A stretch of 64,000 nucleotides of DNA from Robiginitalea marina (GTDB lineage: Bacteria > Bacteroidota > Bacteroidia > Flavobacteriales > Flavobacteriaceae). The stretch is taken from assembly GCF_024006985.1 (NCBI RefSeq), contig NZ_JAMXIB010000013.1, positions 1-64,000 of the forward strand, written 5' to 3'. Shown here piece by piece: positions 43,026-57,490 of the stretch (position 1 is the stretch's first letter; each line of letters starts with the position of its first letter). The notes beneath the pieces are model-generated. The model made no database searches, had not been told where the DNA came from, and saw only the letters and a list, made by a program, of their open reading frames with translations. Both the position numbers and the translations under genes were made by a program.

Positions 43026-43093
43026 GGTCAGGGCTTGGTTAGCGTCTAAAGATATTGTTTTTTTAAAATACCTTTATCCTTTCGCTTCAACCC

Positions 43094-43861
43094 ATGATTG
43101 CGCACCCTCCCCTGGAAGAAACGGGCCTTTTAGCCCTTGTCCTCGCCCTGCTGTCGAGTTTTGCGCTGGGTATCTCCAAATCGGGCCTGAAAGGCATTGG
43201 GGTGCTGATCGTAACCCTCATGGCCCTGGCCTACGGGGCCCGTACCTCCACAGGGCTGCTGGTGCCCCTTTTGATCTGCGGCGACATTTTTGCCGTGCTG
43301 CATTACCACCGGCACACCCGCTGGGAATACGTGTGGCGGTTGCTGCCCTGGATCCTGGCCGGGCTCCTGTTCGGGGCCTGGATCGGGAAAGACCTCCCGG
43401 AGGCAACCTTCAAATGGGCCATGGGCGGTATCATCCTGGTGAGCGTGGGGGTAATGGCCTGGTGGGACCTCCGCAAATCAAAACACATCCCGAACCATTG
43501 GGGGTTTGCCGGGGTCATGGGGATTTTGGCCGGGATCACCAGTATGGTGGGGAACCTGGCCGGGGCGTTTTCAAACCTGTACTTCCTGGCCATGCGGCTG
43601 CCCAAAAACGAATTCATAGGCACGGTCGCCTGGCTGTTCCTGTTGATCAACCTGGTAAAACTGCCCCTCCACATCTTTGCGTGGGGCACCATTACCCCGG
43701 CCGTCCTGCAGGCCAACCTGAGGCTCTTCCCTGCCCTGGTGCTCGGGTTGCTGGTGGGAATCAGGCTGGTAAGGAGCATCCGGGACCCCCTGTTCCGCAA
43801 GCTGATCCTGGTGCTGACGGCCCTGGGGGCTGCCCTGTTGCTCCTCCGCCCGGCAGGTTAG
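43094..43861 (+). CDS. TauE/SafE-family sulfite/organosulfonate exporter
   Basis: A 255-residue membrane protein with about eight helices and the two-repeat TauE layout (GISKSGLKGIGVL near residue 26, and GNLAGAFSNLYFL in the second half). The family exports sulfite, sulfonates or related anions. It sits at the edge of the sulfide oxidation island, as tauE does in staphylococcal cst operons. Unlike the other units it has no TGTAAC palindrome upstream. A box TACCTTTA at 43069-43076 may be its -7 element. Its stop overlaps the convergent DUF6691 stop by three bases. Confidence 0.85.
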   Translation: MIAHPPLEETGLLALVLALLSSFALGISKSGLKGIGVLIVTLMALAYGARTSTGLLVPLLICGDIFAVLHYHRHTRWEYVWRLLPWILAGLLFGAWIGKDLPEATFKWAMGGIILVSVGVMAWWDLRKSKHIPNHWGFAGVMGILAGITSMVGNLAGAFSNLYFLAMRLPKNEFIGTVAWLFLLINLVKLPLHIFAWGTITPAVLQANLRLFPALVLGLLVGIRLVRSIRDPLFRKLILVLTALGAALLLLRPAG

Positions 43862-44271
43862 TGCGGCAACTTTTCTTTTACTAACCCATAGGCCCAGGTG
43901 CCGAGTACGGCCCCTGCAATCACGATGAGGATCGGGAGGTACCCGGCCCCAACAAGGGTAAACATAGGGCCCGGGCAGGCCCCGGCAAGGGCCCAGCCCA
44001 GCCCGAAGATAAAGCCCCCGATAAGGTAGCGGGGAACGCTTTTTTCCTTGGGCTCAAACTGGATGGGGTCCCCGTAAAAGGACTTTACCTTAAACCGTTT
44101 GATCGCCTGTACGATGATCACCCCCAGCACCACAGCGGTGCCGATGATCCCGTACATATGGAAGGCGTCAAACTTGAACATTTCGTAAATCCGGAACCAG
44201 CTGGCGGCCTCCGATTTGAACATGGTGATCCCGAACAGGATCCCGATCAATAGATAACTCAGGCTTCGCAT
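43858..44271 (-). CDS. YeeE/YedE-type transporter half, C-terminal-like (DUF6691)
   Basis: A 137-residue membrane protein with about four helices. The conserved cysteine motif WALAGACPGP lies near residue 95. Together with the preceding gene it makes up one full YeeE/YedE (TsuA-like) transporter, a family that imports thiosulfate. The gap between the halves is three bases, so they are cotranscribed, probably with SQR upstream. Confidence 0.85.
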   Translation of the reverse strand: MRSLSYLLIGILFGITMFKSEAASWFRIYEMFKFDAFHMYGIIGTAVVLGVIIVQAIKRFKVKSFYGDPIQFEPKEKSVPRYLIGGFIFGLGWALAGACPGPMFTLVGAGYLPILIVIAGAVLGTWAYGLVKEKLPH

Positions 44272-44274
44272 CGC

Positions 44275-44832
44275 TTAAAAGATTAAGGGGAACAGAAAAT
44301 AGATCATCACCATGCCGCCGGCAAAAAACCCGATGACGGCCAACAGGGACGGCCACTGCAGGTTACTCAGGCCCGAAATCGCATGCCCTGAGGTACATCC
44401 CCCGGCATACCGGGCCCCAAAGCCCACCAGGAATCCGCCCAGCGCCAGCAGGCCGAGGGTGGCCGGCTCGCTGAACACCCCCGAAGAGAAGAGTTCTGTG
44501 GGGAGGTAGGCTTTCCCGGCGCTCTCAAAACCCAAAGTGTTGAGTTCCGCCACGGTTACGGGGTTAATGGCCACCGCCGGGTCGGCGGTCAGGTAGTGGG
44601 CGGCGATAAACCCGCCGATGATAGCCCCGACCACCACGATCAGGTTCCATTGTTGTTCCTTCCAGTCAAACCGGAAAAACTCCGAAGTCTTGCCGGCCCC
44701 GCACATAGTGCAGAAGGTCCTTAGGTTAGACGACATCCCGAAATTCCTGCCGACCAGTAAAAGCAACAGCATCACCAACGCTATTGCAGCCCCGGAAACA
44801 TACCAGGGCCAGGGTTGCATAATCCAATCCAT
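44275..44832 (-). CDS. YeeE/YedE-type transporter half, N-terminal-like
   Basis: A 185-residue membrane protein with four to five helices. The signature GARYAGGCTSGHAISG near residue 140 holds the cysteine that in thiosulfate transporters contacts the substrate. A second cysteine pair, FCTMCGAGK, lies near residue 40. It is split from its partner half at 43858. SQR ends 51 bp upstream on the same strand. Confidence 0.87.
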   Translation of the reverse strand: MDWIMQPWPWYVSGAAIALVMLLLLLVGRNFGMSSNLRTFCTMCGAGKTSEFFRFDWKEQQWNLIVVVGAIIGGFIAAHYLTADPAVAINPVTVAELNTLGFESAGKAYLPTELFSSGVFSEPATLGLLALGGFLVGFGARYAGGCTSGHAISGLSNLQWPSLLAVIGFFAGGMVMIYFLFPLIF

Positions 44833-44883
44833 AAATTAGGGTTTATAAGGGGTATTTGTATTTGTTCTCAAAAACGGGTCGGG

Positions 44884-46131
44884 TTACACATCCTTCCCTT
44901 TCAGCATCTTGTTCCAGTAAAGATAAGGAAGCCCGTACTTCTTAAGCATCCACAGCCTCCAGTGCTCCTTGGAGGAATCGCCGATCAGCATCATCTTCAG
45001 TTTGGGGTCGGGGGTGAACTTGTTGTCGTAATCAAATTCCGCCAACACCATCTTGCCATAGTCGCTGACGATGGGGCAGGAGGAATAGCCGTGGTAGGTC
45101 TTGCTGCCCAGGATATTATTTGACCGCAGCTGCAGGATGTTCCCGATCACCACCGGCACCTGTTTGCGGATGGCCGCCCCGGTTTTGGCAGCGGGGATGC
45201 CTGCAACATCGCCCAGGGCGAACACATTGGAGTATTTCGGGTGCTGCAGGGTATGCTTGTCGACATCGAGCCATCCGGCCTCATTGGCCAGGGGCGACTC
45301 CTGGATGAATTTCGGGGCAGCCGAAGGGGGTGCGGTGTGCAGCAGGTCGTAATGCACCCCTGTGAGGTTCCCGTCCTTTTCCAGTTTGATGTCTTTGTGG
45401 TTGTATTCGTGCTCGTGGTCCATAAAGGAATACCAGGCAATCTGGTTGGGCCCGTCTACCTTTTCCAGTTTATAGCCGAACCTGAGGTTGATGTCCTTGC
45501 GGTCCACGATTTCAAGCAGGGTTTTCTTGACTTCGGGCACCCCAAAAATCGTGGTCCCCGGTGTGGCAAACACCACGGTAGTCTTGTCCCTTACCCCGGC
45601 CCTGCGGAAATAGCTTTCCGCCAGGTACATGATTTTCTGGGGGGCACCCCCGCATTTGATGGTAGTGGCGGGCTGGGTGAACAGGGCTGTCCCCCCTTTG
45701 AACTTCTTCAACACCTCCCAGGTGTGTTCAGGGTCGGTGTAATTGCTGCAAACCACCCCTTTGTCCATCGCCTCCCCCAGCCCGGGAACCAGGCTCCAGT
45801 CGTAGGCCAGGCCAGGGGCCACCACCAGGTAATCGTAGGAAATGTCGCCGCTCGATTGGGTGGTCACGATATTTTCCCCTGGCTTGAACCCCGTGGCGTA
45901 ATCGCGGATCCAGGTAGCCCTTTTGGGGATCACTGAGGCCATGGGGCGGGCAGTCTTTTTATAATCATAGGTGCCGGCGCCCACCAGGGTCCAGGCCGGT
46001 TGATAATAATGGGTGTCCGAAGGTTCTATAATGCCGACCTTAAGGCTTTTATCTTCCTGGAGGAAGCGGGCGGCTGTCATAATGCCCCCTGTTCCCCCGC
46101 CAATCACCAGTATTTCGTAATGTGATTTCAT
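44884..46131 (-). CDS. Sulfide:quinone oxidoreductase
   Basis: A 415-residue flavoprotein with FAD motif VIGGGTGGIMTAARF near residue 9 and the second FAD motif GDVAGIPAAKTGAA near 308. Three cysteines at 128, 160 (TIKCGGAPQK) and 352 (SSCPIVSDYG) fall where the catalytic cysteines of SQR enzymes lie. It oxidises sulfide at the membrane, passes electrons to quinone and makes persulfide or polysulfide. Palindrome A and a -7 box TACCTTTA (minus, 46165-46158) stand upstream. Confidence 0.9.
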   Translation of the reverse strand: MKSHYEILVIGGGTGGIMTAARFLQEDKSLKVGIIEPSDTHYYQPAWTLVGAGTYDYKKTARPMASVIPKRATWIRDYATGFKPGENIVTTQSSGDISYDYLVVAPGLAYDWSLVPGLGEAMDKGVVCSNYTDPEHTWEVLKKFKGGTALFTQPATTIKCGGAPQKIMYLAESYFRRAGVRDKTTVVFATPGTTIFGVPEVKKTLLEIVDRKDINLRFGYKLEKVDGPNQIAWYSFMDHEHEYNHKDIKLEKDGNLTGVHYDLLHTAPPSAAPKFIQESPLANEAGWLDVDKHTLQHPKYSNVFALGDVAGIPAAKTGAAIRKQVPVVIGNILQLRSNNILGSKTYHGYSSCPIVSDYGKMVLAEFDYDNKFTPDPKLKMMLIGDSSKEHWRLWMLKKYGLPYLYWNKMLKGKDV

Positions 46132-46186
46132 AAGAATGCAGGTTGTTTAACAAAAATTAAAGGTAGGTATTTCCAACCCCTTTAAT

Positions 46187-46202
46187 TGTAACCTAGGTTA
46201 CA
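46187..46202 (-). promoter_or_regulatory. Operator A (Crp/Fnr-type palindrome) for SQR-YeeE operon
   Basis: TGTAACCTAGGTTACA is a perfect 16-bp palindrome. On the minus strand it is separated by 21 bp from the -7 box TACCTTTA and lies 55 bp before the SQR start. The spacing fits a class II activator site. Confidence 0.8.
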
Positions 46203-46289
46203 GTCGGCATTATCATCGCCAGTTTCCCGGGTTTTTCCTCATTTTGCCCTTTAGCCCCACGGGGCTCCATGAAAAAACCTCCCCGTTTT

Positions 46290-46305
46290 TGTAACAAAGG
46301 TTACA
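46290..46305 (+). promoter_or_regulatory. Operator B (Crp/Fnr-type palindrome) for sorA operon
   Basis: TGTAACAAAGGTTACA has perfect half-sites. It is followed after 21 bp by TAAGTTTA (46327-46334) and lies 54 bp before the sorA start, mirroring operator A. Confidence 0.8.
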
Positions 46306-46359
46306 GAACACTACTGGAAAATCCCCTAAGTTTATCGGTCAATCACAACCTGTATTCCA

Positions 46360-47580
46360 ATGAACCGCCGGAAATTTGTGCAAAATTCGGGGCTTACGGC
46401 GCTCAGTGCGTTGCTTGGGGCCGAAATCGTTTTTGGAAATTACCTCCCCGAGGGATATATCCCCCTGGGGCTCCAGGACCCCGACCCCTTCAAGCTGTTT
46501 AACAAGGACCCCGAAATGGTGGTCCTCAACGACAAGCCCTGGAACATCGAATCCCTGGCGCACCACCTCGACGACAAGATCACCCCCAACCGGTATATGT
46601 TTATCCGCAACAATGGAAACATCCCGGAAAGCATCGACCTGAAGGCCTGGACCCTCACCTTTGACGGGGAGTCGGTGCAGAAGCCCAAAAGCTATACCCT
46701 GGCAGACCTTAAATCGAAGTTCCCCCAATACACCTACCAGCTCACCCTGGAATGCGGGGGGAATGGCAGGGCTGAATTCGACCCGCCCGCCAAGGGAAAC
46801 CAGTGGACGGTCGGGGCCGTGGCCTGCGCCGAATGGACCGGGGTCAGGCTGCGGGACCTGCTTAACGATGTCGGGGTCAAAGGCGATGCCGTCTACATCG
46901 GGTACCACGCCGCAGACACCCACCTTAGCGGGGACCCGAAAAAGGAACCGATTTCCCGGGGCATGCCCATGGCCAAGGCCCTGCAGGACGAGACCCTGGT
47001 GGCCTTCCGGATGAACGGGGAAGACATCCCCCTGGCGCACGGGCACCCGCTTCGGCTGGTCGCCGGCGGCTGGCCCGCTTCCGTGTCGGGCAAGTGGCTT
47101 ACCGGCATCAGCGTGCGCAACAAGGTACACGACGGGCCGAAAATGACCGGGGATTCCTATAAGGTCCCCTGTAACCCGGTAGCCCCCGGAGACAAAGTGG
47201 CCGAGGAAGATATGTGCATCATCGAATCCATGCCGGTTAAATCTTTGATCACCTACCCCAAAACGGGGGCAACCCTGCCCCTGGGCAAGAGCCTGTCGTT
47301 CCGTGGCCATGCCTGGGCCGGGGAACTGGAGGTGACGCAAATGCTGTATTCCATCGATTTTGGCAGCACCTGGAAGGAATGCGCGCTGGAGGCCCCGGTC
47401 AACCGCCTGGCCTGGCAGCATTTCTCGGCAACCGCAAAATTCCCCAAAAAGGGGTATTACGAAGTGTGGGCCAGGGCAGTGGATAGCCGGGGGAACGCCC
47501 AGCCCATGGTCCTGCCTGGATGGAACCCCAAAGGGTACCTCAACAATGCCTGCCACCGAATCGCTGTAAAGGTCGTATGA
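46360..47580 (+). CDS. sorA: Sulfite dehydrogenase, molybdopterin subunit (SorA/SoxC-like)
   Basis: A 406-residue sulfite-oxidase-family protein. The N-terminus MNRRKFVQNSGLTALSALLG is a Tat-type signal, so the folded cofactor protein goes to the periplasm. The molybdenum-ligand cysteine is Cys132 in TLECGGNGR; a C-terminal dimerisation domain follows from about residue 290. It oxidises sulfite to sulfate and gives electrons to the cytochrome encoded next, whose ATG overlaps this stop (ATGA). The sulfur context favours sulfite over other substrates of the family. Confidence 0.88.
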   Translation: MNRRKFVQNSGLTALSALLGAEIVFGNYLPEGYIPLGLQDPDPFKLFNKDPEMVVLNDKPWNIESLAHHLDDKITPNRYMFIRNNGNIPESIDLKAWTLTFDGESVQKPKSYTLADLKSKFPQYTYQLTLECGGNGRAEFDPPAKGNQWTVGAVACAEWTGVRLRDLLNDVGVKGDAVYIGYHAADTHLSGDPKKEPISRGMPMAKALQDETLVAFRMNGEDIPLAHGHPLRLVAGGWPASVSGKWLTGISVRNKVHDGPKMTGDSYKVPCNPVAPGDKVAEEDMCIIESMPVKSLITYPKTGATLPLGKSLSFRGHAWAGELEVTQMLYSIDFGSTWKECALEAPVNRLAWQHFSATAKFPKKGYYEVWARAVDSRGNAQPMVLPGWNPKGYLNNACHRIAVKVV

Positions 47581-48062
47581 TGGAACCCTCCCAAAAATTT
47601 GAGCAAAGCGCCCGGGCTATCTCCCGGATGATGGGGATGATCTTCGCCCTGTTTATGGTTATGGGGGCCTTTTTGGTCTACCTGATGATCGACCCGACCT
47701 TTTCGGCTTTCCGCCCTGACCCTAAGGTGGATACCGTAGCGGTGGCAACAGTGGAGGAAGACGACTACGACAAGATCGAAAACGGCATCCATGTGCGCAC
47801 GGGCTTTGTGGAGGGCGAGGGCCTGATGACCGTGGTAAACAATTGCACCAACTGCCATTCCGCCAAACTGGTCACCCAGAACCGGATGTCGGCCGACCGG
47901 TGGCGTGCAACCATCAAATGGATGCAGGAAACCCAGAACCTCTGGGACCTCGGCAAGAACGAAGACATTATCGTAACCTATCTGGCCACCTATTACGCCC
48001 CAGAGAAAAAGGGAAGGAGGCCTAACCTGGAAAATATCGAATGGTATGCGCTGGAGCAGTAG
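47577..48062 (+). CDS. sorB: Membrane-anchored monohaem cytochrome c, SorB-like electron acceptor
   Basis: A 161-residue protein with one N-terminal membrane anchor (about residues 21-38) and one haem site, CTNCH at residues 90-94. A methionine in NRMSADRW or the C-terminal part may be the sixth ligand. Position and ATGA overlap with sorA point to the sulfite dehydrogenase cytochrome subunit. The frame also runs upstream to 47520, but the overlap start at 47577 fits better. It overlaps the rhodanese gene by 17 bp. Confidence 0.82.
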   Translation: MMEPSQKFEQSARAISRMMGMIFALFMVMGAFLVYLMIDPTFSAFRPDPKVDTVAVATVEEDDYDKIENGIHVRTGFVEGEGLMTVVNNCTNCHSAKLVTQNRMSADRWRATIKWMQETQNLWDLGKNEDIIVTYLATYYAPEKKGRRPNLENIEWYALEQ

Positions 48063-49002
48063 TATCCTCATCATAATCCTGCTGCTGGGCAGTTGCCGGC
48101 AGCAGGAGGCCGTTGCGCCCGTGGCCGAAACGGCAGTACAGCCAGGGGCGTATGCCCATCCGGCTTCCCTGGTTTCCGTGGATGAACTCGTCCGCCTGTC
48201 GGGGCACAAGCACCTCAAGGTGATCGATTTCAGGCAGCGCGAAGCCTTTGACCAGGGCCACATCCCGGGAGCCCTCCCGATGTGGCGGTCCGACATCGAG
48301 GCCCGTGACCAGGCCACCCCCGGGTTGGTCGCCTCCGGGGAAGCGCTGGAAGCCCTCCTTTCGGGCTTGGGGATTTCCCCCGAAGATACCCTGGTAGTTT
48401 ACGACGACCAGGGAGGTCCAGATGCGGCCCGGTTCTGGTGGGCGATGCGCCTTTACGGTTTTGAGCAGGTGCGCCTGCTCAACGGAGGGCTGCAGGCCTG
48501 GCAGGGCGAGGGGCTCCCCCTGAATGCAGCATACACCGCCCCGTCCCCGGCAAACTTTCGCTTTGCCGGGGCGGGCGACCCATCGCTCCGGATTGAAAAA
48601 GACACCCTGCTGGGGTTGCTCGGAAGCCCGGAATGGGCGCTGATCGATACCCGCACCCATGAGGAATACAGCGGGAAACGGCAAAAAGACGGGGCTTTGG
48701 CTGCCGGCCATATCCCGGGAAGCCTCCACATCGACTGGGCCGAGTCCGTCCGCTACAACGGGGATAAAACCTTCCGCACGCCTGAGGAACTTGCAAAAAT
48801 ATACCAAGACCTTCCGGCCGACCGGGATGGCCTGATCGTGACCTATTGCCATTCCGGGGTGCGGTCGGCACACACCAGTTTTGTGCTGACCCAACTGCTC
48901 GGATATACCCGGGTCCGCAACTACGACGGCTCCTGGCTGGAATGGAGTTCCACCCCGGGGCTCCCGATTGAAAAAGACAGTCTCACCTCAATTTTAAATT
49001 AG
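48046..49002 (+). CDS. Lipoprotein sulfurtransferase (two rhodanese domains)
   Basis: A 318-residue protein with a lipobox ending at Cys17 (LLLGSC). Two rhodanese domains follow. The first has Asp in place of the active cysteine (VVYDDQGGPDAAR), so it is inactive. The second has the active loop CHSGVRS near residue 268. This is the SseA-type layout. It could transfer sulfane sulfur from thiosulfate or persulfides in the periplasm. It overlaps sorB and is followed after two bases by the next gene, so all four genes form one unit. Confidence 0.88.
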   Translation: MRWSSSILIIILLLGSCRQQEAVAPVAETAVQPGAYAHPASLVSVDELVRLSGHKHLKVIDFRQREAFDQGHIPGALPMWRSDIEARDQATPGLVASGEALEALLSGLGISPEDTLVVYDDQGGPDAARFWWAMRLYGFEQVRLLNGGLQAWQGEGLPLNAAYTAPSPANFRFAGAGDPSLRIEKDTLLGLLGSPEWALIDTRTHEEYSGKRQKDGALAAGHIPGSLHIDWAESVRYNGDKTFRTPEELAKIYQDLPADRDGLIVTYCHSGVRSAHTSFVLTQLLGYTRVRNYDGSWLEWSSTPGLPIEKDSLTSILN

Positions 49003-49004
49003 CT

Positions 49005-49919
49005 ATGGAAAAATACCTAGACGCTTTCGCAAATGCCTTTTCGGGCACCGTTACCTGGACATGGAAATCGATCCTCTTCGAAGTCCCCTGGTACACCAAC
49101 TACTTCTGGGGGCTGGTCGCCATCTCCCTGGTGGTCTGGCTGCTGGAAATTGCCTTCCCCTGGAGGAAAAACCAGGCCATTTTCCGGAGGGATTTCTGGC
49201 TCGATGCCTTCTACATGTTCTTCAACTTCTTCATCTTCGCCATTGTCATCAGCGGGGTCTACAAAATGCTGGAAGTTTTATTCAAGGACCTTGGGATTAC
49301 CGCCAAAAGCCTGGCCATCGTGGACATCAGCGCATGGCCCATGTGGGCGCAGTTGCTGTCGTTTTTCATCGTGCTCGACTTTGTGCAGTGGTTCACCCAC
49401 GTATTGCTGCACAAATTCCCCGTGCTCTGGAACTTCCACAAAGTGCACCACAGCGTGAAGGAAATGGGCTTCGCCGCCCACCTGAGGTACCACTGGATGG
49501 AGAACATCCTCTACAAGCCCCTGAAGGTATTCGGGGTGATGATCCTTGGCGGGTTTGAACCCGAGCAGGCGTATATCGTCCACTTTGCGGCCATCTCCAT
49601 CGGGCACCTGAACCACGCCAACATCAAATTGACCTGGGGTCCGCTGAAGTATGTCTTCAATAACCCGGTGATGCACCTCTACCACCATGCGTACACCCTG
49701 CCCAAGGGGTCATTCGGGGTGAATTTCGGGATCAGCCTGAGCCTCTGGGACTACATTTTCAAAACCAATTACGTCCCCGAAGACAGCGGCACCATAGAAC
49801 TGGGCTTCCCCGGCGATGAGGATTTCCCGCAGGATTTCATCCACCAGAACCTCTATGGCTTCAGCAAGCCGAAAAAAAGGGAACGGATTCCCGGGGCCCG
49901 GCTTAATCCCCGAGGATAA
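49005..49919 (+). CDS. Fatty-acid hydroxylase/sterol desaturase-family membrane protein
   Basis: A 304-residue protein with four or so membrane helices and the family histidine boxes HVLLH (near 129), HKVHH (near 144) and HLYHH (near 225), which bind a di-iron centre. Members hydroxylate or desaturate lipids with oxygen. Its place as the last gene of the sorAB-rhodanese unit is unexpected. The substrate and its link to sulfur metabolism are unknown. Its 3' end overlaps the convergent racemase gene by 17 bp. Confidence 0.85.
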   Translation: MEKYLDAFANAFSGTVTWTWKSILFEVPWYTNYFWGLVAISLVVWLLEIAFPWRKNQAIFRRDFWLDAFYMFFNFFIFAIVISGVYKMLEVLFKDLGITAKSLAIVDISAWPMWAQLLSFFIVLDFVQWFTHVLLHKFPVLWNFHKVHHSVKEMGFAAHLRYHWMENILYKPLKVFGVMILGGFEPEQAYIVHFAAISIGHLNHANIKLTWGPLKYVFNNPVMHLYHHAYTLPKGSFGVNFGISLSLWDYIFKTNYVPEDSGTIELGFPGDEDFPQDFIHQNLYGFSKPKKRERIPGARLNPRG

Positions 49920-50586
49920 AATCCACGGCCATGCGGGCATGCAAGTCGGTGGTGGCCAGGGTGGGAAGGCCCACCTGGCTGCCATCGATGAGCAATGGGA
50001 GTTCGGTACACCCTAAAATTATGCCCTCGGCCCCCCTCTCCTGTAGCAGGTTAATCTGGTTCATGAAAAACTTCCGGGCCGCTTCGGTGAACTTCCCCTG
50101 GGTAAGCTCTTTGGAGACATACTCGTGGGCCTGGGAAAGGCAATGGTCTTCCGGGATGATGGTGGTGATCCCAAACTTTTCCCGCAACACCTCCGGGATG
50201 AAGCTCCCGGTCATGGTGGGTCGGTTGCCGAGCAGGCCCAGTTTCTTCAGGCCCAGGCGCGATGCCTCCCTGCCCGTGGCTTCGGCAATATGCAAAATGG
50301 GCACCGGTATTTTCGGCTGCACATAGGCGCTGGCCATATGGGGGGTATTGGCACAGATCAGGATCCCTTCCGCCCCGGCGGCGATGAGTTTTTCGGAAAC
50401 CTCCAGGTATTTGGCATTGATCTTGTCCCGGTCCTGTTCCCGCATGATTTCGATATTGATGCTGTACAGGATCAACTCCGGGTTGGCCTGGGAGCCGATG
50501 GCCTCCCCAACCCATTTGTTGATCAGTTGGTAATACACTACGGTGGAGTGCCACGAGGTGCCTCCGATTAGGCCGAGGGTTTTCAT
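49903..50586 (-). CDS. Aspartate/glutamate racemase family protein
   Basis: A 227-residue two-cysteine racemase fold opening MKTLGLIGGTSWHST. Both catalytic cysteines are present, in ICANTPHM near 79 and ILGCTELP near 192. Cofactor-free racemases of this kind act on aspartate, glutamate or related acids. It lies 12 bp downstream of the DUF3365 gene. No connection to sulfur oxidation is evident. Confidence 0.85.
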   Translation of the reverse strand: MKTLGLIGGTSWHSTVVYYQLINKWVGEAIGSQANPELILYSINIEIMREQDRDKINAKYLEVSEKLIAAGAEGILICANTPHMASAYVQPKIPVPILHIAEATGREASRLGLKKLGLLGNRPTMTGSFIPEVLREKFGITTIIPEDHCLSQAHEYVSKELTQGKFTEAARKFFMNQINLLQERGAEGIILGCTELPLLIDGSQVGLPTLATTDLHARMAVDFILGD

Positions 50587-50598
50587 AGGGCAAGGGTT

Positions 50599-51210
50599 TC
50601 AGGGTTTCCGGCCGGTAAAGGCCACTTTCCACAGCCCCCTGAGCTCGTTGGCCGAATATCCGGTGGCCAGGTCGTTGGGGTATAGCTGGTCCAGGGTTTT
50701 AACGACCTCGTCGGAGAGGTCCGTTTGTGGCGCCCCATGGCATTTGATGCACATGGCGTTGGTGACAATAGGCGCGTAATAATGGGGGGTGCCGTCGACG
50801 GTTACGATCCGGGGTTCTGGAGCCTGCCCTTCCGCCAGGGCGGCCCGGAAGGCCGAAATAAGTTCCAGTTCCTGTTCAGAAGCCTGGTTGTATGGGTTTC
50901 TGGGCTTGTCCGTAATGCGGGTAATGGCGACCCCGAATGACCGCGAAAGGCTGTCGGTAATGGGCAGGGCCTCCACCTTGCAGAATCCGATGGCCCCCAG
51001 GGTACCTTCTTCCATCATTTTTTGCTGGAGGGTTTTTCCCAGGGCCCCCTGCACCTGCAGGGCATACTCCCGCCCGGCCTCCAGGTATTCCGCCTCGGTA
51101 TAGGCCGCTTCTTCCCCGGCGGCTGCGTCGGAAGCCCCTTCGCGGGTTGCTTTGTCTTTACAGGAAAACGCCAGGGTGGCGATCAGGGCTGCCAGTACGA
51201 GCTTTTTCAT
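50599..51210 (-). CDS. DUF3365 (Tll0287-like) haem-binding lipoprotein
   Basis: A 203-residue protein with a lipobox (LAFSC, Cys17) and a c-type haem motif CIKCH at 154-158 within a Tll0287-like sensor domain (GFCKVEALPITDSLS near residue 76). It is probably a periplasmic haem protein acting as an electron carrier or redox sensor. Operator C and its -7 box lie about 180 bp upstream, but a strong terminator lies between. The Asp/Glu racemase gene follows after 12 bp. Confidence 0.82.
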   Translation of the reverse strand: MKKLVLAALIATLAFSCKDKATREGASDAAAGEEAAYTEAEYLEAGREYALQVQGALGKTLQQKMMEEGTLGAIGFCKVEALPITDSLSRSFGVAITRITDKPRNPYNQASEQELELISAFRAALAEGQAPEPRIVTVDGTPHYYAPIVTNAMCIKCHGAPQTDLSDEVVKTLDQLYPNDLATGYSANELRGLWKVAFTGRKP

Positions 51211-51261
51211 AAGGTGGTATTTTCAGGTTTTCTGCAACGGACCGGTGCTTGCAAGGGGTCC

Positions 51262-51387
51262 AAAAAAAGAAAGCGGCCCTTTATACCAGGCCGCTTTCCT
51301 CACTAAAAACAATCAACTCAACCATTTAGTTATGAAACATGTCCCTTGCGGGAACTATCCATTCTTTTGAAAGGTTTTTTGCAACCA
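51262..51387 (-). ncRNA. Candidate small RNA or attenuated leader under operator C
   Basis: A transcript from the operator C promoter should begin near 51387 and meet a 10-bp perfect stem (GAAAGCGGCC/GGCCGCTTTC, 51269-51298) followed by seven T, ending near 51262. That gives about 125 nt. Inside is a small hairpin TCCC-GCAA-GGGA and a possible 10-codon frame (MDSSRKGHVS). The terminator may serve the upstream CstB-like gene, or control read-through to the DUF3365 gene. Confidence 0.45.
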
Positions 51388-51421
51388 CAGTACCAAGCTA
51401 AACGGTTTTTCAGCCTTTTTC

Positions 51422-51437
51422 AGTAACCAAAGTTACA
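51422..51437 (-). promoter_or_regulatory. Operator C (Crp/Fnr-type palindrome)
   Basis: On the minus strand TGTAACTTTGGTTACT is followed after 21 bp by TAGCTTGG (51400-51393), one mismatch from TAnnTTTG. It lies 28 bp past the stop of the first CstB-like gene and faces the candidate small RNA. Confidence 0.65.
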
Positions 51438-51465
51438 CAGGTGAAAAAAGTTTTCCCGTGCCTGC

Positions 51466-52878
51466 CTACAGGGTGGAAGGGCAGACATAGTCTGTCACCG
51501 GCAGCCCAGCTTCCTTGATGGCCTTGAACCCCCCGGTAACATCCACCAGGTTGTGGATCCCGCGGCTTTTAAGGATAGACGCCGCAATCATGCTGCGGTA
51601 CCCTCCTGCGCAATGCAGGTAGAAAACCTCTTCCCTGGGGAAGGCGCTCAGGTAGTCGTTCAGGAAATCCAGGGGGGTGTTTTCGGCATCCACCAGGTGT
51701 TCGGAGAGGTACTCGCTCTCTTTCCTGACATCGAATACCCTGATCTGGTCCGAAGATTCCAGTACATCCTGTAACCCTTCCGGGCTGATCGGGCTTACCG
51801 TGTCGTACTCCTTGGAAGCCTTCTTCCAGGCTTCAAAGCCGCCTTTGAGGTACCCCATGGTATTGTCGAAGCCCACGCGGGAAAGGCGCGTTACTGCCTC
51901 CTCCACCCGGTCTTCAGGGGCTACCAGCAGGATCGGCTGGGCCACGTCGGCTACCAGCGACCCCACCCAGGGGGCGAAGCTCCCGTCGAGCCCGATAAAA
52001 ATCGACCTCGGGATGTGCCCTGCGGCAAATTCATCCTCATGGCGCACATCCAGGATAATGGCCCCGGTCTCGTTGGCCGCCACCTCAAACGCATCGGGGC
52101 TGAGCGCCTGCATCCCGCGCTCCAGCACATGGTCCACGTCTTCGTAGCCCTCCTTATTCATCTTCACGTTCAACGGGAAATACTGGGGGGGCGGCAGCAG
52201 GCCTTCGGTGACTTCAGCCACGAATTCCTCGCGGGTCATATCGGCCCGCAGCGCGTAATTGGTGTTTTTCTGGTTCCCCAGGGTATCGACGGTTTCCTTC
52301 GACATGTTCTTCCCGCAGGCCGAACCCGCCCCGTGGGCCGGGTAGACAATAATATCGTCGGACAGCGGCATGATCTTGTTGCGCAGGCTGTCGTACAGGG
52401 TAGACGCCAGCTGTTCCTGGGTCATGTCGGCCGCCTTCTGGGCCAGGTCAGGGCGCCCCACGTCGCCGAGGAACAGGGTGTCACCGCTGAAAATGGCGTG
52501 GTCCTTCCCCTGCCCGTCGCGCAGGAGGTAGGTGGTGCTTTCCATGGTGTGCCCGGGGGTGTGCAGGGCCACGAGGGTAAGGTCGCCCACTTTGAACTCC
52601 TGCCCGTCTTTGGCAATGATGGCCTCAAAGCTGGGGTTGGCCAGGGGCCCATACACGATGGGGGCCCCGGTCTTTTTCGCCAGGGTGAGGTGTCCGCTCA
52701 CGAAATCGGCGTGGAAGTGGGTCTCGAAAATATACTTGATTTCCGCCCCGTCCTGCCGGGCCCGTTTGATGTAAGGGCCTACTTCCCGCAACGGGTCGAT
52801 AATGGCGGCCTCGCCCTTGCTTTCAATATAGTAAGCCCCCTGGGCCAGGCAACCGGTATAAATTTGTTCAATAGTCAT
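51466..52878 (-). CDS. CstB-like persulfide dioxygenase-rhodanese fusion, paralog 1
   Basis: A 470-residue protein from ATG 52878. Residues 1-240 are a metallo-beta-lactamase fold of persulfide dioxygenase type: THFHADFVSGH (His54, His56, Asp58), TPGH (His110) and SGDTLFLGDVGRPD (Asp133). Residues about 255-350 are a rhodanese domain lacking the active cysteine. Residues about 370-465 are an active one with Cys423 in HCAGGYRSM. The order matches staphylococcal CstB, which oxidises persulfides to sulfite or thiosulfate. It ends in Cys-Pro-Ser-Thr-Leu. It has its own operator (D). Confidence 0.9.
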   Translation of the reverse strand: MTIEQIYTGCLAQGAYYIESKGEAAIIDPLREVGPYIKRARQDGAEIKYIFETHFHADFVSGHLTLAKKTGAPIVYGPLANPSFEAIIAKDGQEFKVGDLTLVALHTPGHTMESTTYLLRDGQGKDHAIFSGDTLFLGDVGRPDLAQKAADMTQEQLASTLYDSLRNKIMPLSDDIIVYPAHGAGSACGKNMSKETVDTLGNQKNTNYALRADMTREEFVAEVTEGLLPPPQYFPLNVKMNKEGYEDVDHVLERGMQALSPDAFEVAANETGAIILDVRHEDEFAAGHIPRSIFIGLDGSFAPWVGSLVADVAQPILLVAPEDRVEEAVTRLSRVGFDNTMGYLKGGFEAWKKASKEYDTVSPISPEGLQDVLESSDQIRVFDVRKESEYLSEHLVDAENTPLDFLNDYLSAFPREEVFYLHCAGGYRSMIAASILKSRGIHNLVDVTGGFKAIKEAGLPVTDYVCPSTL

Positions 52879-52903
52879 GATTCGCAATCTTTTACTGTAG
52901 GGA

Positions 52904-52911
52904 CAAAAGTA
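52904..52911 (-). promoter_or_regulatory. -7 box of CstB-like paralog 1
   Basis: TACTTTTG on the minus strand is a full match to TAnnTTTG, 21 bp after operator D and 25 bp before the start codon. Confidence 0.7.
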
Positions 52912-52932
52912 GTGCCCCGGGCTTAAATGCTC

Positions 52933-52948
52933 AGTAACTGAAGTTACA
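52933..52948 (-). promoter_or_regulatory. Operator D (Crp/Fnr-type palindrome) for CstB-like paralog 1
   Basis: On the minus strand TGTAACTTCAGTTACT, with one mismatch in the promoter-proximal half. It sits two bases past the terminator of paralog 2, so the intergenic region is fully used. Confidence 0.8.
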
Positions 52949-52950
52949 AA

Positions 52951-52984
52951 ACAAAAAAGCCCGGCTCTATGATGCCGGGCTTGC
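52951..52984 (-). terminator. Intrinsic terminator of CstB-like paralog 2
   Basis: An AAGCCCGGC/GCCGGGCTT stem around an eight-base loop is followed on the minus strand by a T-rich tail, 17 bp past the paralog 2 stop. Confidence 0.85.
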
Positions 52985-53001
52985 GTTTTGGGCTACAGGG
53001 C

Positions 53002-54420
53002 CTACAGTAGCGTGCTGGGGCAGATGTAATCGGTCCTGGGCAGGGGGGTCTCCTTGAGCTCGTCAAAGCCCCCGGTGATGTCCGCAAAGTTGTCCCATCC
53101 GCGTTGCTTGAGGATCGATGAAGCGATCATGCTGCGGTACCCGCCGGCACAGTGCAGCAAAAACGGCTTGTCCCTGGGGATTTCGGCCAGGTGCCGGTTG
53201 ATTTCATTAAGGGGGATGTTGACGGCATCCACCAGGTGTTCGGAATCGTATTCGCTCTTCTTGCGCACGTCGATCACCAGGGGCAGCTGTCCTTTCCCGA
53301 ATTCTTCCACCACCTCTTCCACGGTGACCCGGCGGGTGGTTTCCACATCCTTGCCGGAGGCTTTCCAGGTGTCAAAGCCCCCTTTAAGGAACCCGAGGGT
53401 GTTGTCGTACCCCACGCGGGAGAGCCGGGTGACCGCCTCTTCTTCCCTGCCGGGTTCAATCACCATCAATATGGGCTGCTTCACATCGGGGATCATTTCC
53501 CCCACCCACTGGGCAAAATTCCCGTCGAGGCCGATGTTGATGCTGTTCGGGATAAAGCCTTTGGCAAATTCCTCCGCATCGCGGGTATCCATCACCAGGG
53601 CCCCGGTTTCATTGGCTGCGGCCTCAAATGCCTCAGCACTCAGGGGTTGGGTGCCCCGCTCCATGATATCGTCAAGGGATTCGTACCCCTGTATGTTCAT
53701 CAGGACGTTCTGGGGGAAGTACCCCGGAGGCGCGGTAAGCCCGGTAAGCAGCTCTTTGATGAATTCCTCCCGGGTCATGTCGGCCCTGAGGGCGTAGTTG
53801 ACCTCCTTCTGGTGGCCCAGGGTATCGGTGGTTTCCTTGCTCATCATCTTGCCGCAGGCCGAACCGGCCCCATGGTTGGGGTATACGATCAGGTGGTCGG
53901 GCAGGGGCATGATCTTGTTGCGGAGCGAATCGAAGAGGTGGCTCGCCAGTTTTTCCTCCGTCAGGTCGGAGACCACGTGCTGCGCCAGGTCGGGCCGGCC
54001 CACATCGCCGATAAAGAGGGTGTCGCCGGTGATGATGCCGTGCATCTGGTCATTTTCGTCGATCAGCAGGTAAGTGGTGCTTTCCATGGTGTGCCCGGGG
54101 GTATGGATGACCTTTACCTTGTAATCGCCCACATGGAATACCTGCCCGTCTGTGGCGATCAGGGCCTCATAAGACGGCCTGGCATTGGGGCCGAAAACGA
54201 TGGTCGCCCCGGTTTTCTTTTGCAGGTCGAGGTGGCCGCTGACAAAATCGGCGTGGAAGTGGGTCTCAAAAACGTACTTGATCTCTGCATTGTCGATCTG
54301 CGCCCGGTCGATATAGGGCTGGACTTCCCGAAGGGGGTCAAAGACAGCTGCCTCCCCCTTGCTCTCGATGTAATACGCGGCATGCGCCAGGCATCCGGTA
54401 TAAATTTGTTCTACTTTCAT
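53002..54420 (-). CDS. CstB-like persulfide dioxygenase-rhodanese fusion, paralog 2
   Basis: A 472-residue close paralog of the neighbouring gene with the same three domains. Dioxygenase metal residues are His54, His56, Asp58 and a TPGH histidine. The middle rhodanese domain is without cysteine (ILMVIEPGREEEA), and the active rhodanese has Cys424 (HCAGGYRSM). It also ends in Cys-Pro-Ser-Thr-Leu. Differences are spread over the length, so the duplication is not recent. It has its own operator (E) and terminator and is probably monocistronic. Confidence 0.9.
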   Translation of the reverse strand: MKVEQIYTGCLAHAAYYIESKGEAAVFDPLREVQPYIDRAQIDNAEIKYVFETHFHADFVSGHLDLQKKTGATIVFGPNARPSYEALIATDGQVFHVGDYKVKVIHTPGHTMESTTYLLIDENDQMHGIITGDTLFIGDVGRPDLAQHVVSDLTEEKLASHLFDSLRNKIMPLPDHLIVYPNHGAGSACGKMMSKETTDTLGHQKEVNYALRADMTREEFIKELLTGLTAPPGYFPQNVLMNIQGYESLDDIMERGTQPLSAEAFEAAANETGALVMDTRDAEEFAKGFIPNSINIGLDGNFAQWVGEMIPDVKQPILMVIEPGREEEAVTRLSRVGYDNTLGFLKGGFDTWKASGKDVETTRRVTVEEVVEEFGKGQLPLVIDVRKKSEYDSEHLVDAVNIPLNEINRHLAEIPRDKPFLLHCAGGYRSMIASSILKQRGWDNFADITGGFDELKETPLPRTDYICPSTLL

Positions 54421-54453
54421 CGTGCGTTTAAGGTATTGATTAGATTACGGTTA

Positions 54454-54498
54454 CTAAAATAGCGATCGGGGGCTGAACCTTCAGTGACCTGGGTTACA
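54454..54498 (-). promoter_or_regulatory. Operator E and -7 box for CstB-like paralog 2
   Basis: On the minus strand TGTAACCCAGGTCACT (54498-54483) is followed after 21 bp by TATTTTAG (54461-54454), one mismatch from TAnnTTTG. The operator overlaps the last five bases of the sulP gene. Confidence 0.75.
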
Positions 54499-56227
54499 CA
54501 AGGCCCCGGGTGGTCTGGGTGGCAATTTTCGCCTCCAGTTCGGACCGCCCGGCGCTCGCCTTGCAATGGGTATAGGCCTGGAAGGTATCGGCAAAGAGGT
54601 TTTCGGGCCCGATGTCTTCTATCAGCCTGCTGCTGTACAGGATGTCGCGCGTGGGCCCGATGGCGCCGGCCACGGCAAAGCGGATGCCCCGCTTGCGGAG
54701 TTCCTGCACCAGGGCGCGGAGCATGAAAACGGCCGTGCTGTCGATGTAGCTGATGGCCTCGGCGTTCAGGATCACATACTGCAGTCCCTCCCCCTTCTTG
54801 CGGACCTGCCGCTGGAGTTGCTCGCGGAAATAGTCGGTATTGCCAAAGAAGAGCTGCCCGTCAAAGCGGAGGATCAGGAATTGCGCCATGTCTTCCACGT
54901 CTTCGGCAAAGCGGTCCACGTTCCGGAAATAATTCGTCCCCCTGATCTTGCCCAAAATGGCGATGTGCGGCTTGGAGATCCGGTACACCAGCAACAGCAG
55001 GGATAAAAGCACGCCCAGCAGGATGCCCTCCCTGATCCCCATCCCCAGGGTCAGCACAAAGGTGACCAGGAGCAGGATAAATTCATCCTTGCGGTTCCTC
55101 CACAGCTGCAGGGGGTATTTCACGTCGATCAGGCCAAAAACCGCCACCATGATGATGGAGGCCAGCACGGCATTGGGCAGGTAATAGAAGGCCGGCGTCA
55201 AAAACAGCAGGGTCAGGGCCACCACCGCGCTGCTGACCAGGGCGGCCACCCCGGACCGGGCCCCGGCCTGGTCGTTCACCGCGGTACGGGAAAAGCCCCC
55301 CGTGGTCGGATACGACTGGAAAAAAGCGCCTGCGATGTTCGAGGCCCCCAACGCCACCAGCTCCTGGTTGGCATCGACCCGTTTTTCCCCTTTCTTTTCT
55401 TCCACGGCCTTGGCCACGGAAATCGCCTCCATAAAGGCGATCAGGGCCAGGGTCAGGGCAATGGGGAAGAGTTCGGAAATGCGGCTTACCTCAACCTCCG
55501 GCATCGTGGGGGCGGGAAGCCCCCCGGGTACCTCGCCCACAATTCTGACGCCCAGGTCGAAGAGCCCAAAGAAGTACACCGCCAGCACCCCGAGGACCAC
55601 GGCCACCAGGGCCGCCGGGATTTTGGGGTTTACCCGCTTCAGCCCGCTGATCAGGAAAATGGCCCCCAGGCCGATGGCCAGGGTGGTGAGGTTGGTGGTT
55701 GAAAGGGTTTTGGCGGCATTGGCCAGCAAAATATGTACCTGGTTGCTCCCGGCAATGTCGGTGCCCAGCAGGTGCTTGAGCTGGCTGAGCCCGATAATGA
55801 TGGCCGCGGCAGAGGTAAACCCGCTGATCACAGGGCGGGAGAGGAAGTTCACCAGGAAACCCATCCGCAGCAGGCCGAACCCCAGCTGCAGGGCCCCCAT
55901 AAAGAGCGCCAGGAAAACGGCCATGGCGATGTACTCTTCGATCCCGGAAAGGGCCAGGGCCCCCAGGCCAGAGGCGACCAGGAGGGAATCCATGGCCACC
56001 GGGCCCACGGAAAGCTGGGGCGAAGTCCCCATCAGGGCGTAAACGATCTGGGGCATCAGGGCGGCATACAGGCCAAAAACGGGTGGGAGGCCGGCAATCA
56101 TCGCATAAGCCATCCCCTGGGGGATGAGCATGATGCCCACGGTCAGGCCGGCAGACAGGTCACCGGAAAGCCATTCCTTCCGGTATCCGGGCAACCATTG
56201 CAGGATCGGGAAAAAGCGCTTCAGCAT
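54494..56227 (-). CDS. SulP-family (SLC26-type) anion permease with STAS domain
   Basis: A 577-residue transporter. The membrane part spans about residues 15-410, opening with the conserved GLTVGIMLIPQGMAYA. The C-terminal cytoplasmic STAS domain runs from about 435 to 550 (ILRFDGQLFFGNTDYF, AEAISYIDSTAVFMLRAL). SulP proteins carry sulfate, bicarbonate or other anions. In this island sulfate or sulfite movement is a reasonable guess. It lies 30 bp downstream of the Crp/Fnr gene on the same strand and is probably in its operon. Confidence 0.9.
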   Translation of the reverse strand: MLKRFFPILQWLPGYRKEWLSGDLSAGLTVGIMLIPQGMAYAMIAGLPPVFGLYAALMPQIVYALMGTSPQLSVGPVAMDSLLVASGLGALALSGIEEYIAMAVFLALFMGALQLGFGLLRMGFLVNFLSRPVISGFTSAAAIIIGLSQLKHLLGTDIAGSNQVHILLANAAKTLSTTNLTTLAIGLGAIFLISGLKRVNPKIPAALVAVVLGVLAVYFFGLFDLGVRIVGEVPGGLPAPTMPEVEVSRISELFPIALTLALIAFMEAISVAKAVEEKKGEKRVDANQELVALGASNIAGAFFQSYPTTGGFSRTAVNDQAGARSGVAALVSSAVVALTLLFLTPAFYYLPNAVLASIIMVAVFGLIDVKYPLQLWRNRKDEFILLLVTFVLTLGMGIREGILLGVLLSLLLLVYRISKPHIAILGKIRGTNYFRNVDRFAEDVEDMAQFLILRFDGQLFFGNTDYFREQLQRQVRKKGEGLQYVILNAEAISYIDSTAVFMLRALVQELRKRGIRFAVAGAIGPTRDILYSSRLIEDIGPENLFADTFQAYTHCKASAGRSELEAKIATQTTRGLV

Positions 56228-56257
56228 GGATTGGTTCTTTTCATCCCCCGCGAACCC

Positions 56258-56890
56258 TTAAAGGTCTAAAATCTTCAGGTAGTTGCGGTGGATTTCAATT
56301 TTGCCCATCTGCTCCAGTTTCTTCAGCAGGCGGGAAATCACCACCCGAGAGCTGTGAAGGTCATAGGCGATTTCCTGGTGGGTGTTGTGGATGATGGAAT
56401 CATGGTTTACCCGGGCTTTCTCGCGCAGGTAGTTCACCAGGCGCTCGTCCATGTTCAAAAAGGCGATGTTGTCTATGGCCTGTAACATCTCGTTGAGGCG
56501 GTTGTTATAGCTCTGGAAGACGAAATTCCGCCACGAGCGGTATTTGGCCGTCCATTCCTCCATTTTGCGGATGGGGATCATTATCAGTTTGGCATCGGTC
56601 TCGGCCACAGCCCGGATTTCGCTGCGGGCCTGCCCCATGCAGCAACTCATGGTCACCGAGCAGGTATCGCCCTGTTCCAGGTAATACAGGAGCAGCTCAT
56701 CGCCTTCAGGGTCTTCGCGCAGGACCTTGATCGCGCCCGAAATCAGCAGGGGCATCCCTTTGATGTATTCGCCGATCTCCATCAGCTTGTGCCCGGCCGG
56801 GACTTCCCGGTAGGTGCCCACCTGGGCGATCTCGTTGATGAGGGCTTCCTCGAAAAGGTTGCCATAGCTGGCCTTCAATTCCTGTATCAT
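56258..56890 (-). CDS. Crp/Fnr-family transcriptional regulator
   Basis: A 210-residue protein with a cyclic-nucleotide-binding-type beta-roll (about 20-115), a long dimer helix and a C-terminal winged helix. The recognition helix is SSRVVISRLLKKL (180-192); Val183 stands where E. coli CRP has Glu181. Three cysteines (77, 83, 84; GDTCSVTMSCCMG) lie near the ligand pocket and could sense persulfide, a metal or an iron-sulfur cluster. The Fnr N-terminal cysteines are absent. It is probably the activator that binds operators A-F. It overlaps the DUF983 gene (ATGA) and precedes sulP. Confidence 0.9.
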   Translation of the reverse strand: MIQELKASYGNLFEEALINEIAQVGTYREVPAGHKLMEIGEYIKGMPLLISGAIKVLREDPEGDELLLYYLEQGDTCSVTMSCCMGQARSEIRAVAETDAKLIMIPIRKMEEWTAKYRSWRNFVFQSYNNRLNEMLQAIDNIAFLNMDERLVNYLREKARVNHDSIIHNTHQEIAYDLHSSRVVISRLLKKLEQMGKIEIHRNYLKILDL

Positions 56891-57285
56891 GGGTGCAGGT
56901 TATCTTTTTGGGCTGCGGTTTGGTCGTATTTGAAAAAGAAATTCGCCCAGATGGATTTTGAAACGGCCCCGATATAGGGCATCAGGACCACCAGGGCGGC
57001 CACAATGGTCGCGAAAATCCCGGCGACCCCCAGGTCGAGGCCAAAGAGCAGGATCAGCACATACACCGCTACCCCTACGGCGACCCCCACCCCGTAGGAA
57101 ACGTACATAGAGCCGTAATAAAAACTGGGTTCCATGCGGTATTTCAACCCGCACTCCGGGCAGTGCTCCCGAACCCGGTTCATGCTGGAAAGGTTATAGG
57201 GGTGGTTTTCCAGAAAAGCGCCCTCGTGGCAACGCGGGCATTTCAGGAAGAGTATACTGTAGAGTTTTGAGCCTTTTCCAATCAT
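56887..57285 (-). CDS. DUF983 membrane protein with N-terminal zinc ribbon
   Basis: About 132 residues from ATG 57285. Two CxxC pairs (CPRC at 16-19 and CPEC at 42-45) form a zinc ribbon, followed by two membrane helices (about 60-100). The DUF983 family has no known role, though members often lie near respiratory genes. It is the first gene of the regulator operon, 18 bp past the -7 box, and overlaps the crp-like gene by four bases. Confidence 0.82.
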   Translation of the reverse strand: MIGKGSKLYSILFLKCPRCHEGAFLENHPYNLSSMNRVREHCPECGLKYRMEPSFYYGSMYVSYGVGVAVGVAVYVLILLFGLDLGVAGIFATIVAALVVLMPYIGAVSKSIWANFFFKYDQTAAQKDNLHP

Positions 57286-57302
57286 ACCATGCAATCAAGG
57301 TA

Positions 57303-57347
57303 CAAATTTACGGCTTCAGGAGCCAGCGGATTGTGACTTTTGTTACA
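57303..57347 (-). promoter_or_regulatory. Operator F and -7 box for the DUF983-crp-sulP operon
   Basis: On the minus strand TGTAACAAAAGTCACA (57347-57332) is followed after 21 bp by TAAATTTG (57310-57303), a full match to TAnnTTTG. The unit includes the Crp/Fnr gene, so the regulator is probably autoregulated. Confidence 0.78.
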
Positions 57348-57490
57348 TTCTGCCACACCCCCCGGTTTCAAGCCCCGGAAAGGGCGTCCCTGCCGCAGCG
57401 TTTGAATTCCATTGCCCACCGGGCACAGCGGATTCAGAAATTTTGAGTACTTTTTCAGGTGCGAAACCATTCCCTGCCAAATTTTTGACT

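Follow-up and report, generated by a model that had tools for sequence, protein, structure and literature searches.

An operator at a fixed distance from the -7 box marks a predicted Crp/Fnr sulfide-oxidation regulon in Flavobacteriaceae

At class II promoters of Escherichia coli, CRP binds over the upstream promoter element, with its operator centred at -41.5. Here we analyse a 64,000-nucleotide stretch of the Robiginitalea marina genome (contig NZ_JAMXIB010000013.1, positions 1 to 64,000; the window in what follows), in which six palindromic operators, A to F, are found in a sulfide-oxidation island that also encodes a Crp/Fnr regulator. The centre at -41.5 is common to both systems, whereas E. 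coli CRP goes with TGTGA and carries E72, and in the window the sites read TGTAAC, the regulator has a valine and the promoters have a Bacteroidota -7 box. Sulfide-responsive control of sulfide detoxification genes is described for CstR, SqrR/BigR and FisR in excerpts of a review (PMC9774590); these belong to the CsoR, ArsR and Fis families, whereas the candidate in the window is a Crp/Fnr protein. The reactive-sulfur regulators covered by those excerpts (CstR, SqrR, BigR, PigS, FisR, OxyR, LasR and OhrR) include none that is presented as Crp/Fnr.

The operator itself is shared with the HcpR2 regulon, whose palindrome, GTAACnnnnGTTAC, belongs to hcp promoters of Bacteroides and others and also occurs at A to F. 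Since HcpR sites at three Bacteroidales hcp promoters (L287, L288 and L289) lie at the same or nearly the same distance from the -7 box, this geometry already has a precedent in the phylum. However, the two systems differ in regulator subfamily and in targets, and the proline that common HcpR2 has at the E181 position is a valine in the window regulator. What is new, judged from sequence, is the occurrence of this operator geometry at sulfide-oxidation genes together with a separate Crp/Fnr subfamily. In the open-access literature, surveyed in part, we found no description of this regulon and could trace the operator motif to HcpR2 work alone. HcpR-SnoA of Bacteroides thetaiotaomicron also combines a Crp/Fnr regulator with a conserved non-coding RNA at one stress locus; according to excerpts of the preprint (PMC13370916), SnoA is an antisense RNA in the hcp promoter whose level is HcpR-independent, whereas the RNA predicted in the window lies downstream of its operator.

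The six operators and their -7 boxes are as follows, with transcription starts predicted from the position of the box.

Operator A: 46187..46202, minus strand; -7 box TACCTTTA at 46158-46165, predicted +1 at 46153; precedes the sulfide:quinone reductase (SQR)-YeeE unit.
Operator B: 46290..46305, plus strand; -7 box TAAGTTTA at 46327-46334, predicted +1 at 46339; precedes the SorA-SorB-rhodanese-hydroxylase unit.
Operator C: 51422..51437, minus strand; -7 box TAGCTTGG at 51393-51400, predicted +1 at 51388.
Operator D: 52933..52948, minus strand; -7 box TACTTTTG at 52904-52911, predicted +1 at 52899.
Operator E: 54483..54498, minus strand; -7 box TATTTTAG at 54454-54461, predicted +1 at 54449.
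Operator F: 57332..57347, minus strand; -7 box TAAATTTG at 57303-57310, predicted +1 at 57298; precedes the DUF983-Crp/Fnr-SulP unit.

An earlier note, made from the window alone, had reported these six palindromes, each 21 bp before a -7 box and with an unvarying distal half. All of them were recovered at the coordinates claimed, the spacer is exactly 21 bp at six of six sites, and TGTAAC does not vary across A to F. Boxes A and B differ from TAnnTTTG by the final base alone (A for G), and boxes C and E lack one inner T, leaving five of the six fixed bases. Since TAnnTTTG occupies -12 to -5 in Flavobacterium psychrophilum (excerpts of PMC9723704), the operator would span -49 to -34 with its centre at -41.5, in line with the class II position near -42 that had been proposed, and this phase is conserved in relatives. 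The predicted 5' leaders are 178 nt long at C and 13-29 nt at the other five operators. A search of the window for the pattern with at most one mismatch gave 11 oriented matches, compared with a mean of 0.59 and a maximum of 3 in 100 shuffled sequences.

We conclude that these operators probably define a class II sulfide-oxidation regulon activated by the Crp/Fnr protein encoded at 56258-56890; the observations behind this are the sites, their phase and conservation, the neighbouring genes, and a correlation between recognition residues and operator sequence. The regulator would bind TGTAAC-N4-GTTAC(T/A) centred at -41.5 and, once bound, recruit RNA polymerase to a Bacteroidota sigma-A promoter that has a -7 box but no -33 TTG. 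Its targets would comprise genes of sulfide oxidation (SQR, CstB-like persulfide enzymes, rhodaneses and sulfite dehydrogenase) and of sulfur transport (YeeE, SulP and TSUP), its own operon, a putative small RNA and, outside the island, cytochrome bd, thioredoxin, and a peroxiredoxin accompanied by a third persulfide enzyme. The signal would be linked to sulfide or persulfide, perhaps sensed via C77/C83/C84. Conservation supports the earlier view of the six units as one sulfide-oxidation regulon with a fixed phase, with the amendments that it extends beyond the island and that the same operator had already been published for HcpR.

The fixed distance is retained at regulator loci of other genomes. 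In a first set (29 loci, the regulator neighbourhoods of relatives, with palindromes counted on both strands), 49 of 130 oriented sites had TAnnTTT[GA] at 21 bp, and no other gap between 10 and 35 bp occurred more than three times. A second set was made up of 80 named Flavobacteriaceae loci found via regulator alignment, the best 80 of at least 589 confirmed relatives; two of these loci (L116 and L117) also belong to the first set. Here 292 oriented TGTAAC sites were found at 252 places, and 190 of them had TAnnTTT[GA] at 21 bp, while no other gap between 5 and 44 bp had more than four. When every hexamer was used as an arm (4096 hexamers, 1.475 Mb), TGTAAC at 21 bp ranked first, with 190 matches in 75 loci against eight for the runner-up, and at eight other gaps no arm exceeded five. 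Decoys on the same loci gave between zero and two matches for seven boxes and none for eight arms.

A box with at least five of six fixed bases stands at 21 bp from 221 oriented sites (217 places) in the 80 loci. These comprise 172 that precede homologues of regulon genes, 28 that precede other open reading frames (16 of them, by eye, one-domain rhodaneses) and 21 to which no gene was assigned. The concern raised earlier, that motif and spacing might be equally frequent at unrelated genes, is not borne out by the 172 of 221 boxed sites at regulon-gene homologues, a figure that, since the loci were chosen for the regulator, describes association with the regulator and not genome-wide frequency. 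The genes preceded by sites in the regulator neighbourhoods of relatives are those for DUF983-regulator, CstB-like proteins, SorA, SQR, YeeE, TSUP, SulP and peroxiredoxin. DUF983 has the site upstream in 16 of the 18 loci where it was found among the 80, and the regulator gene has one directly upstream in 15 of 80. Over whole genomes the bare motif is modestly enriched, with 88 oriented matches against 34 for the control in ten genus genomes; for 32 of 196 order genomes (best regulator E <=1e-57), tallied by hand, the figures are 119 and 56. A regulator 67% identical to that of the window is encoded on contig L193, titled Candidatus Rokubacteria, which is probably a misplaced flavobacterial contig.

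The shape of the site was examined in 306 non-independent sites from related genomes (at most three mismatches, both halves treated alike, box at 21 bp required). Of these, 252 have a perfect distal half and 64 a perfect proximal half, with proximal departures mostly at the outermost base. At position -34, 53% have T and 29% have A; at position -33, 55% have G. TTG falls within -36..-28 in just 20 of the 306, which agrees with the proposal that the operator replaces the -33 element.

Judging by its recognition helix, the Crp/Fnr protein encoded in the window is likely to bind these operators. Excerpts of Rodionov et al. (PMC1274295) report that residues R180 and E181 vary together with bases of the site, and connect the HcpR2 motif with loss of E181. 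The window regulator has R182-V183 in its recognition helix and is alone in reading R-V among the four Crp/Fnr helix-turn-helix proteins that score over cut-off in the genome; its specificity stretch is SSRVV, and the other three read TATET, TATES and VREV. In a set of 69 homologues at 67 loci (46 R-V and 23 R-E), with sites taken within 4 kb under a strict criterion, GTA and GTG half-sites numbered 64:4 near R-V and 6:7 near R-E (Fisher p 1.2e-4, with shared ancestry ignored). Without L327 and L335, which have both regulator kinds, the counts were 59:4 and 3:5 (Fisher p 4.6e-4, relatedness uncorrected). Strict sites occurred near 25 of the 46 R-V and 6 of the 23 R-E homologues. A pairing of R-V with GTA and of R-E with relatively more GTG is what would be expected if the paralogues differ by one residue and one base.

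The genome's R-E paralogue (L110, G000:C6:13000-32999) has an adjoining operator, TGTGACCCGGGTCACT (TGTGAC-N4-GTCACT, about 10074-10089, minus strand), followed by 21 bp and TACCTTTG. This operator precedes a small protein that is membrane-bound by appearance, and it may perhaps belong to a second regulon with one base changed.

Across the 3.25-Mb genome, TGTAACN4GTNACW has 13 oriented matches at 11 places, six of them in the window, and its reversed control has three; with the last base freed (TGTAAC-N4-GTnAC) there are 15 oriented matches at 13 places and five for the control. Seven places lie outside the window, six at plausible sulfur or respiration genes and three of those six with a good box. 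A spacer of 21 bp separates the operator from TATCTTTG at a thioredoxin gene, from TACCTTTG at a peroxiredoxin gene followed by a third metallo-beta-lactamase-rhodanese, from GACCTTCG at a TauE/SafE (TSUP) exporter gene (G000:C11:37031) and from GACCTTCA at a gene that we take to encode a DUF302 protein (putative; G000:C22:152753). At the cytochrome bd subunit genes 22 bp lie between the operator and TACCTTTA, and a multihaem cytochrome-FeS-NrfD operon has the operator without a box (AATACATG). The palindrome upstream of the multihaem cytochrome is kept in four genomes (G000:C49:5842, L115, L197 and L218), with no box of at least five of six bases at 20-22 bp. The seventh place, C11:103102, is without sensible context and looks accidental.

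The AlphaFold model of the regulator (mean predicted local distance difference test score, pLDDT, 77; predicted template-modelling score 0.54) has the Crp/Fnr fold, and its best structure match by E-value is 3dv8, followed by CRP and FNR chains. The position of CRP E72 is a valine in the regulator (aligned by eye), so that cyclic AMP (cAMP) is unlikely as its ligand. The segment holding this position also contains C77, C83 and C84, invariant in 18 and in 33 homologues, and the protein may perhaps sense persulfide through them. The fullest form of the proposal is that a flavobacterial Crp/Fnr activator whose cAMP-pocket segment has turned into a cysteine cluster (C77, C83, C84) senses persulfide and switches on, via a rigid -41.5 operator, a programme of sulfide oxidation and sulfide-tolerant respiration together with a small RNA; in this form we regard it as doubtful.

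A number of observations weigh against the regulon as proposed. Four of the 80 regulator loci have no site under the criterion of the decoy test. Away from the island, 45 loci of relatives, selected because of their palindromes, contain 49 such places, and a box lies at 20-22 bp from 13 of them; these boxed places include peroxiredoxin, SorA, CstB-like, YeeE and regulator genes, several off-island palindromes precede unrelated genes, and support there appears weaker than at the regulator loci. In the R. marina genome the boxes at the TSUP and DUF302 genes (GACCTTCG and GACCTTCA) are unlike TAnnTTTG, and perhaps reflect weak promoters or another sigma factor; the sites at the multihaem cytochrome operon lack a box of at least five of six bases in G000, G005, G006 and G103. 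As to recognition, 21 of 46 R-V homologues have no strict site within 4 kb, and since only 6 of 23 R-E homologues have one, the correlation rests on few R-E sites; G037 combines R-E with a TGTAAC site, and the published numbering ties E181 to A6, whereas counting in the same way puts the variable base here at the fifth position. As to sensing, C83/C84 are replaced in L100 and L330, homologues that have sites, and C77 is also present in R-E paralogues. Residues 78-90 are modelled at pLDDT below 50, so the model informs on the fold and not on cysteine geometry.

Other accounts of the same sites were considered. A class II activator would be expected to show a fixed -41.5 phase and to lack a -33 element, whereas a repressor requires no fixed phase. 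For this reason we find it improbable that the protein is a repressor released from these sites by persulfide, even though the operator abuts the promoter and CstR, SqrR and BigR are repressors (excerpts of PMC9774590). Could another Crp/Fnr protein bind the sites? The genome does encode four such proteins over cut-off, but in place of the SSRVV of the window protein the remaining three have TATET, TATES and VREV, and next to the R-E paralogue stands a TGTGAC-N4-GTCACT site of its own, again with the 21-bp phase, making this highly improbable.

Least likely of all is that an HcpR-type nitrosative-stress regulator is at work, with the island a side branch of its regulon. The operator would suit such a regulator, since GTAACnnnnGTTAC is the HcpR2 operator (PMC1274295, excerpts) and it occurs at the three Bacteroidales hcp promoters, with a mismatch in one of them, at 21 bp before the -7 box in two and at 22 bp in the third, gaps being measured by eye. 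However, hcp is present in 3 of 149 class genomes and has no match in this one. The sole adjacent HcpR found reads R-P, is about 25% identical over 179 residues and falls across a long supported branch, although with one HcpR on a very long branch this placement is unsure. Membership in the HcpR group was rejected on the lack of an hcp match in the genome, valine and not proline at the E181 position, the identity of about 25% and the long branch.

On the Crp/Fnr-activated regulon model, sulfide oxidation in a large bacterial family, for which our literature searches turned up no described regulator, would depend on a single regulator, a single operator and a single promoter geometry; if this is true, sulfide handling would be one coordinated programme in many flavobacteria. 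It also offers a sequence rule by which the regulon can be found (TGTAAC-N4-GTTAC, 22 bases, then TAnnTTTG), a recognition code of two residues, open to testing on paralogues within a single genome, and, in the transcript of site C, a candidate RNA for Bacteroidota. To our knowledge, little is known of regulatory RNAs in this phylum. The transcript is predicted as follows.

Putative small RNA or terminated leader, about 127 nt: 51262..51388, minus strand; invariant element at 51301-51323, terminator hairpin at about 51270-51297, T-run to 51262.

Site C, with a box of at least five of six bases at 21 bp, is kept in seven of ten genus genomes. All seven leaders contain the invariant GGTTGAGTTGATTGTTTTTAGTG followed by a GC-rich hairpin and a T-run, and the remainder is not conserved. 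Three of the seven were folded, with z from -3.4 to -3.5 and the terminator formed; a simple terminator scan at the C leader found a different, weaker hairpin only. With a covariance model built from them, the seven necessarily score above 80 bits, and no other match exceeds 41.5 bits in the ten genus genomes or 40.2 bits in 199 family genomes. G002 has a diverged copy (28 bits) with its own operator at 21 bp, before a racemase gene and a CstB-like gene. A further 51 weaker matches (29-40 bits), in 47 other genomes among the 199 of the family, were set aside as generic terminators, since no operator with box was present at the 26 of the 51 regions inspected. When the conserved element was scanned for duplexes with the starts of 16 island gene families, no target emerged (lowest z -1.3), and in Rfam the one match for 43000-58000 at E <=1 was below the gathering score and was taken as chance.

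The unit at C had earlier been described as a small RNA or leader. The RNA-like element with its terminator agrees with this, and the unit needs to be corrected in that genes for a Tll0287-like protein and a racemase follow it. That site C drives a terminated leader of these two genes, perhaps with a short peptide, and not a trans-acting RNA is a reading to which we would give somewhat less than an even chance. Both genes follow the transcript on the same strand, the diverged leader copy in G002 precedes a racemase gene, and an ATG at the invariant element is kept in six of seven leaders; on the other hand, the ATG is missing in one of the seven, and the element is identical at every base in all seven, third codon positions included.

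The genes of the island are listed below.

43858..44271, minus strand: YeeE/TsuA-like sulfur transporter, second half (Pfam PF04143, PF20398).
44275..44832, minus strand: YeeE/TsuA-like sulfur transporter, first half (Pfam PF04143).
44884..46131, minus strand: SQR-like flavoprotein (Pyr_redox_2; NCBIfam type III SQR 226 bits, below the 525-bit cut-off).
46360..47580, plus strand: SorA-like sulfite dehydrogenase, molybdenum subunit (Pfam PF00174, PF03404; NCBIfam SorA 221 bits, below cut-off).
47580..48062, plus strand: SorB-like cytochrome c (NCBIfam SorB E 6.5e-7, below cut-off; no Pfam match).
48046..49002, plus strand: two-domain rhodanese (Pfam PF00581, two stretches).
49005..49919, plus strand: fatty acid hydroxylase family protein (Pfam PF04116).
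49903..50586, minus strand: Asp/Glu racemase family protein, downstream of C (Pfam PF01177).
50599..51210, minus strand: Tll0287-like protein, downstream of C and the terminator (Pfam PF11845).
51466..52878, minus strand: MBLR1, CstB-like metallo-beta-lactamase with two rhodanese domains (Pfam; near full-length match to 3tp9 and 3r2u).
53002..54420, minus strand: MBLR2, second CstB-like protein (Pfam).
54494..56227, minus strand: SulP-family transporter with STAS domain (Pfam PF00916, PF01740).
56258..56890, minus strand: Crp/Fnr regulator, candidate binder (cNMP-binding domain, Pfam PF00027, and HTH_Crp domain, Pfam PF13545, both over cut-off).
56887..57285, minus strand: DUF983 protein, first gene of the regulator operon (Pfam PF06170).

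MBLR1 has the metallo-beta-lactamase and rhodanese architecture of CstB along its full length, and 3r2u is presumably Staphylococcus aureus CstB. MBLR1 is a CstB-like protein, with putative persulfide dioxygenase/sulfurtransferase activity.

Operator TAA serves as an in-frame stop codon at 9 of 269 sites (a count that excludes two-mismatch sites such as E), a mild enrichment over 185 of 12835 random TAA. The TAA of operator E is itself the stop codon of the SulP gene, and the same overlap with the end of SulP is found in genus relatives.

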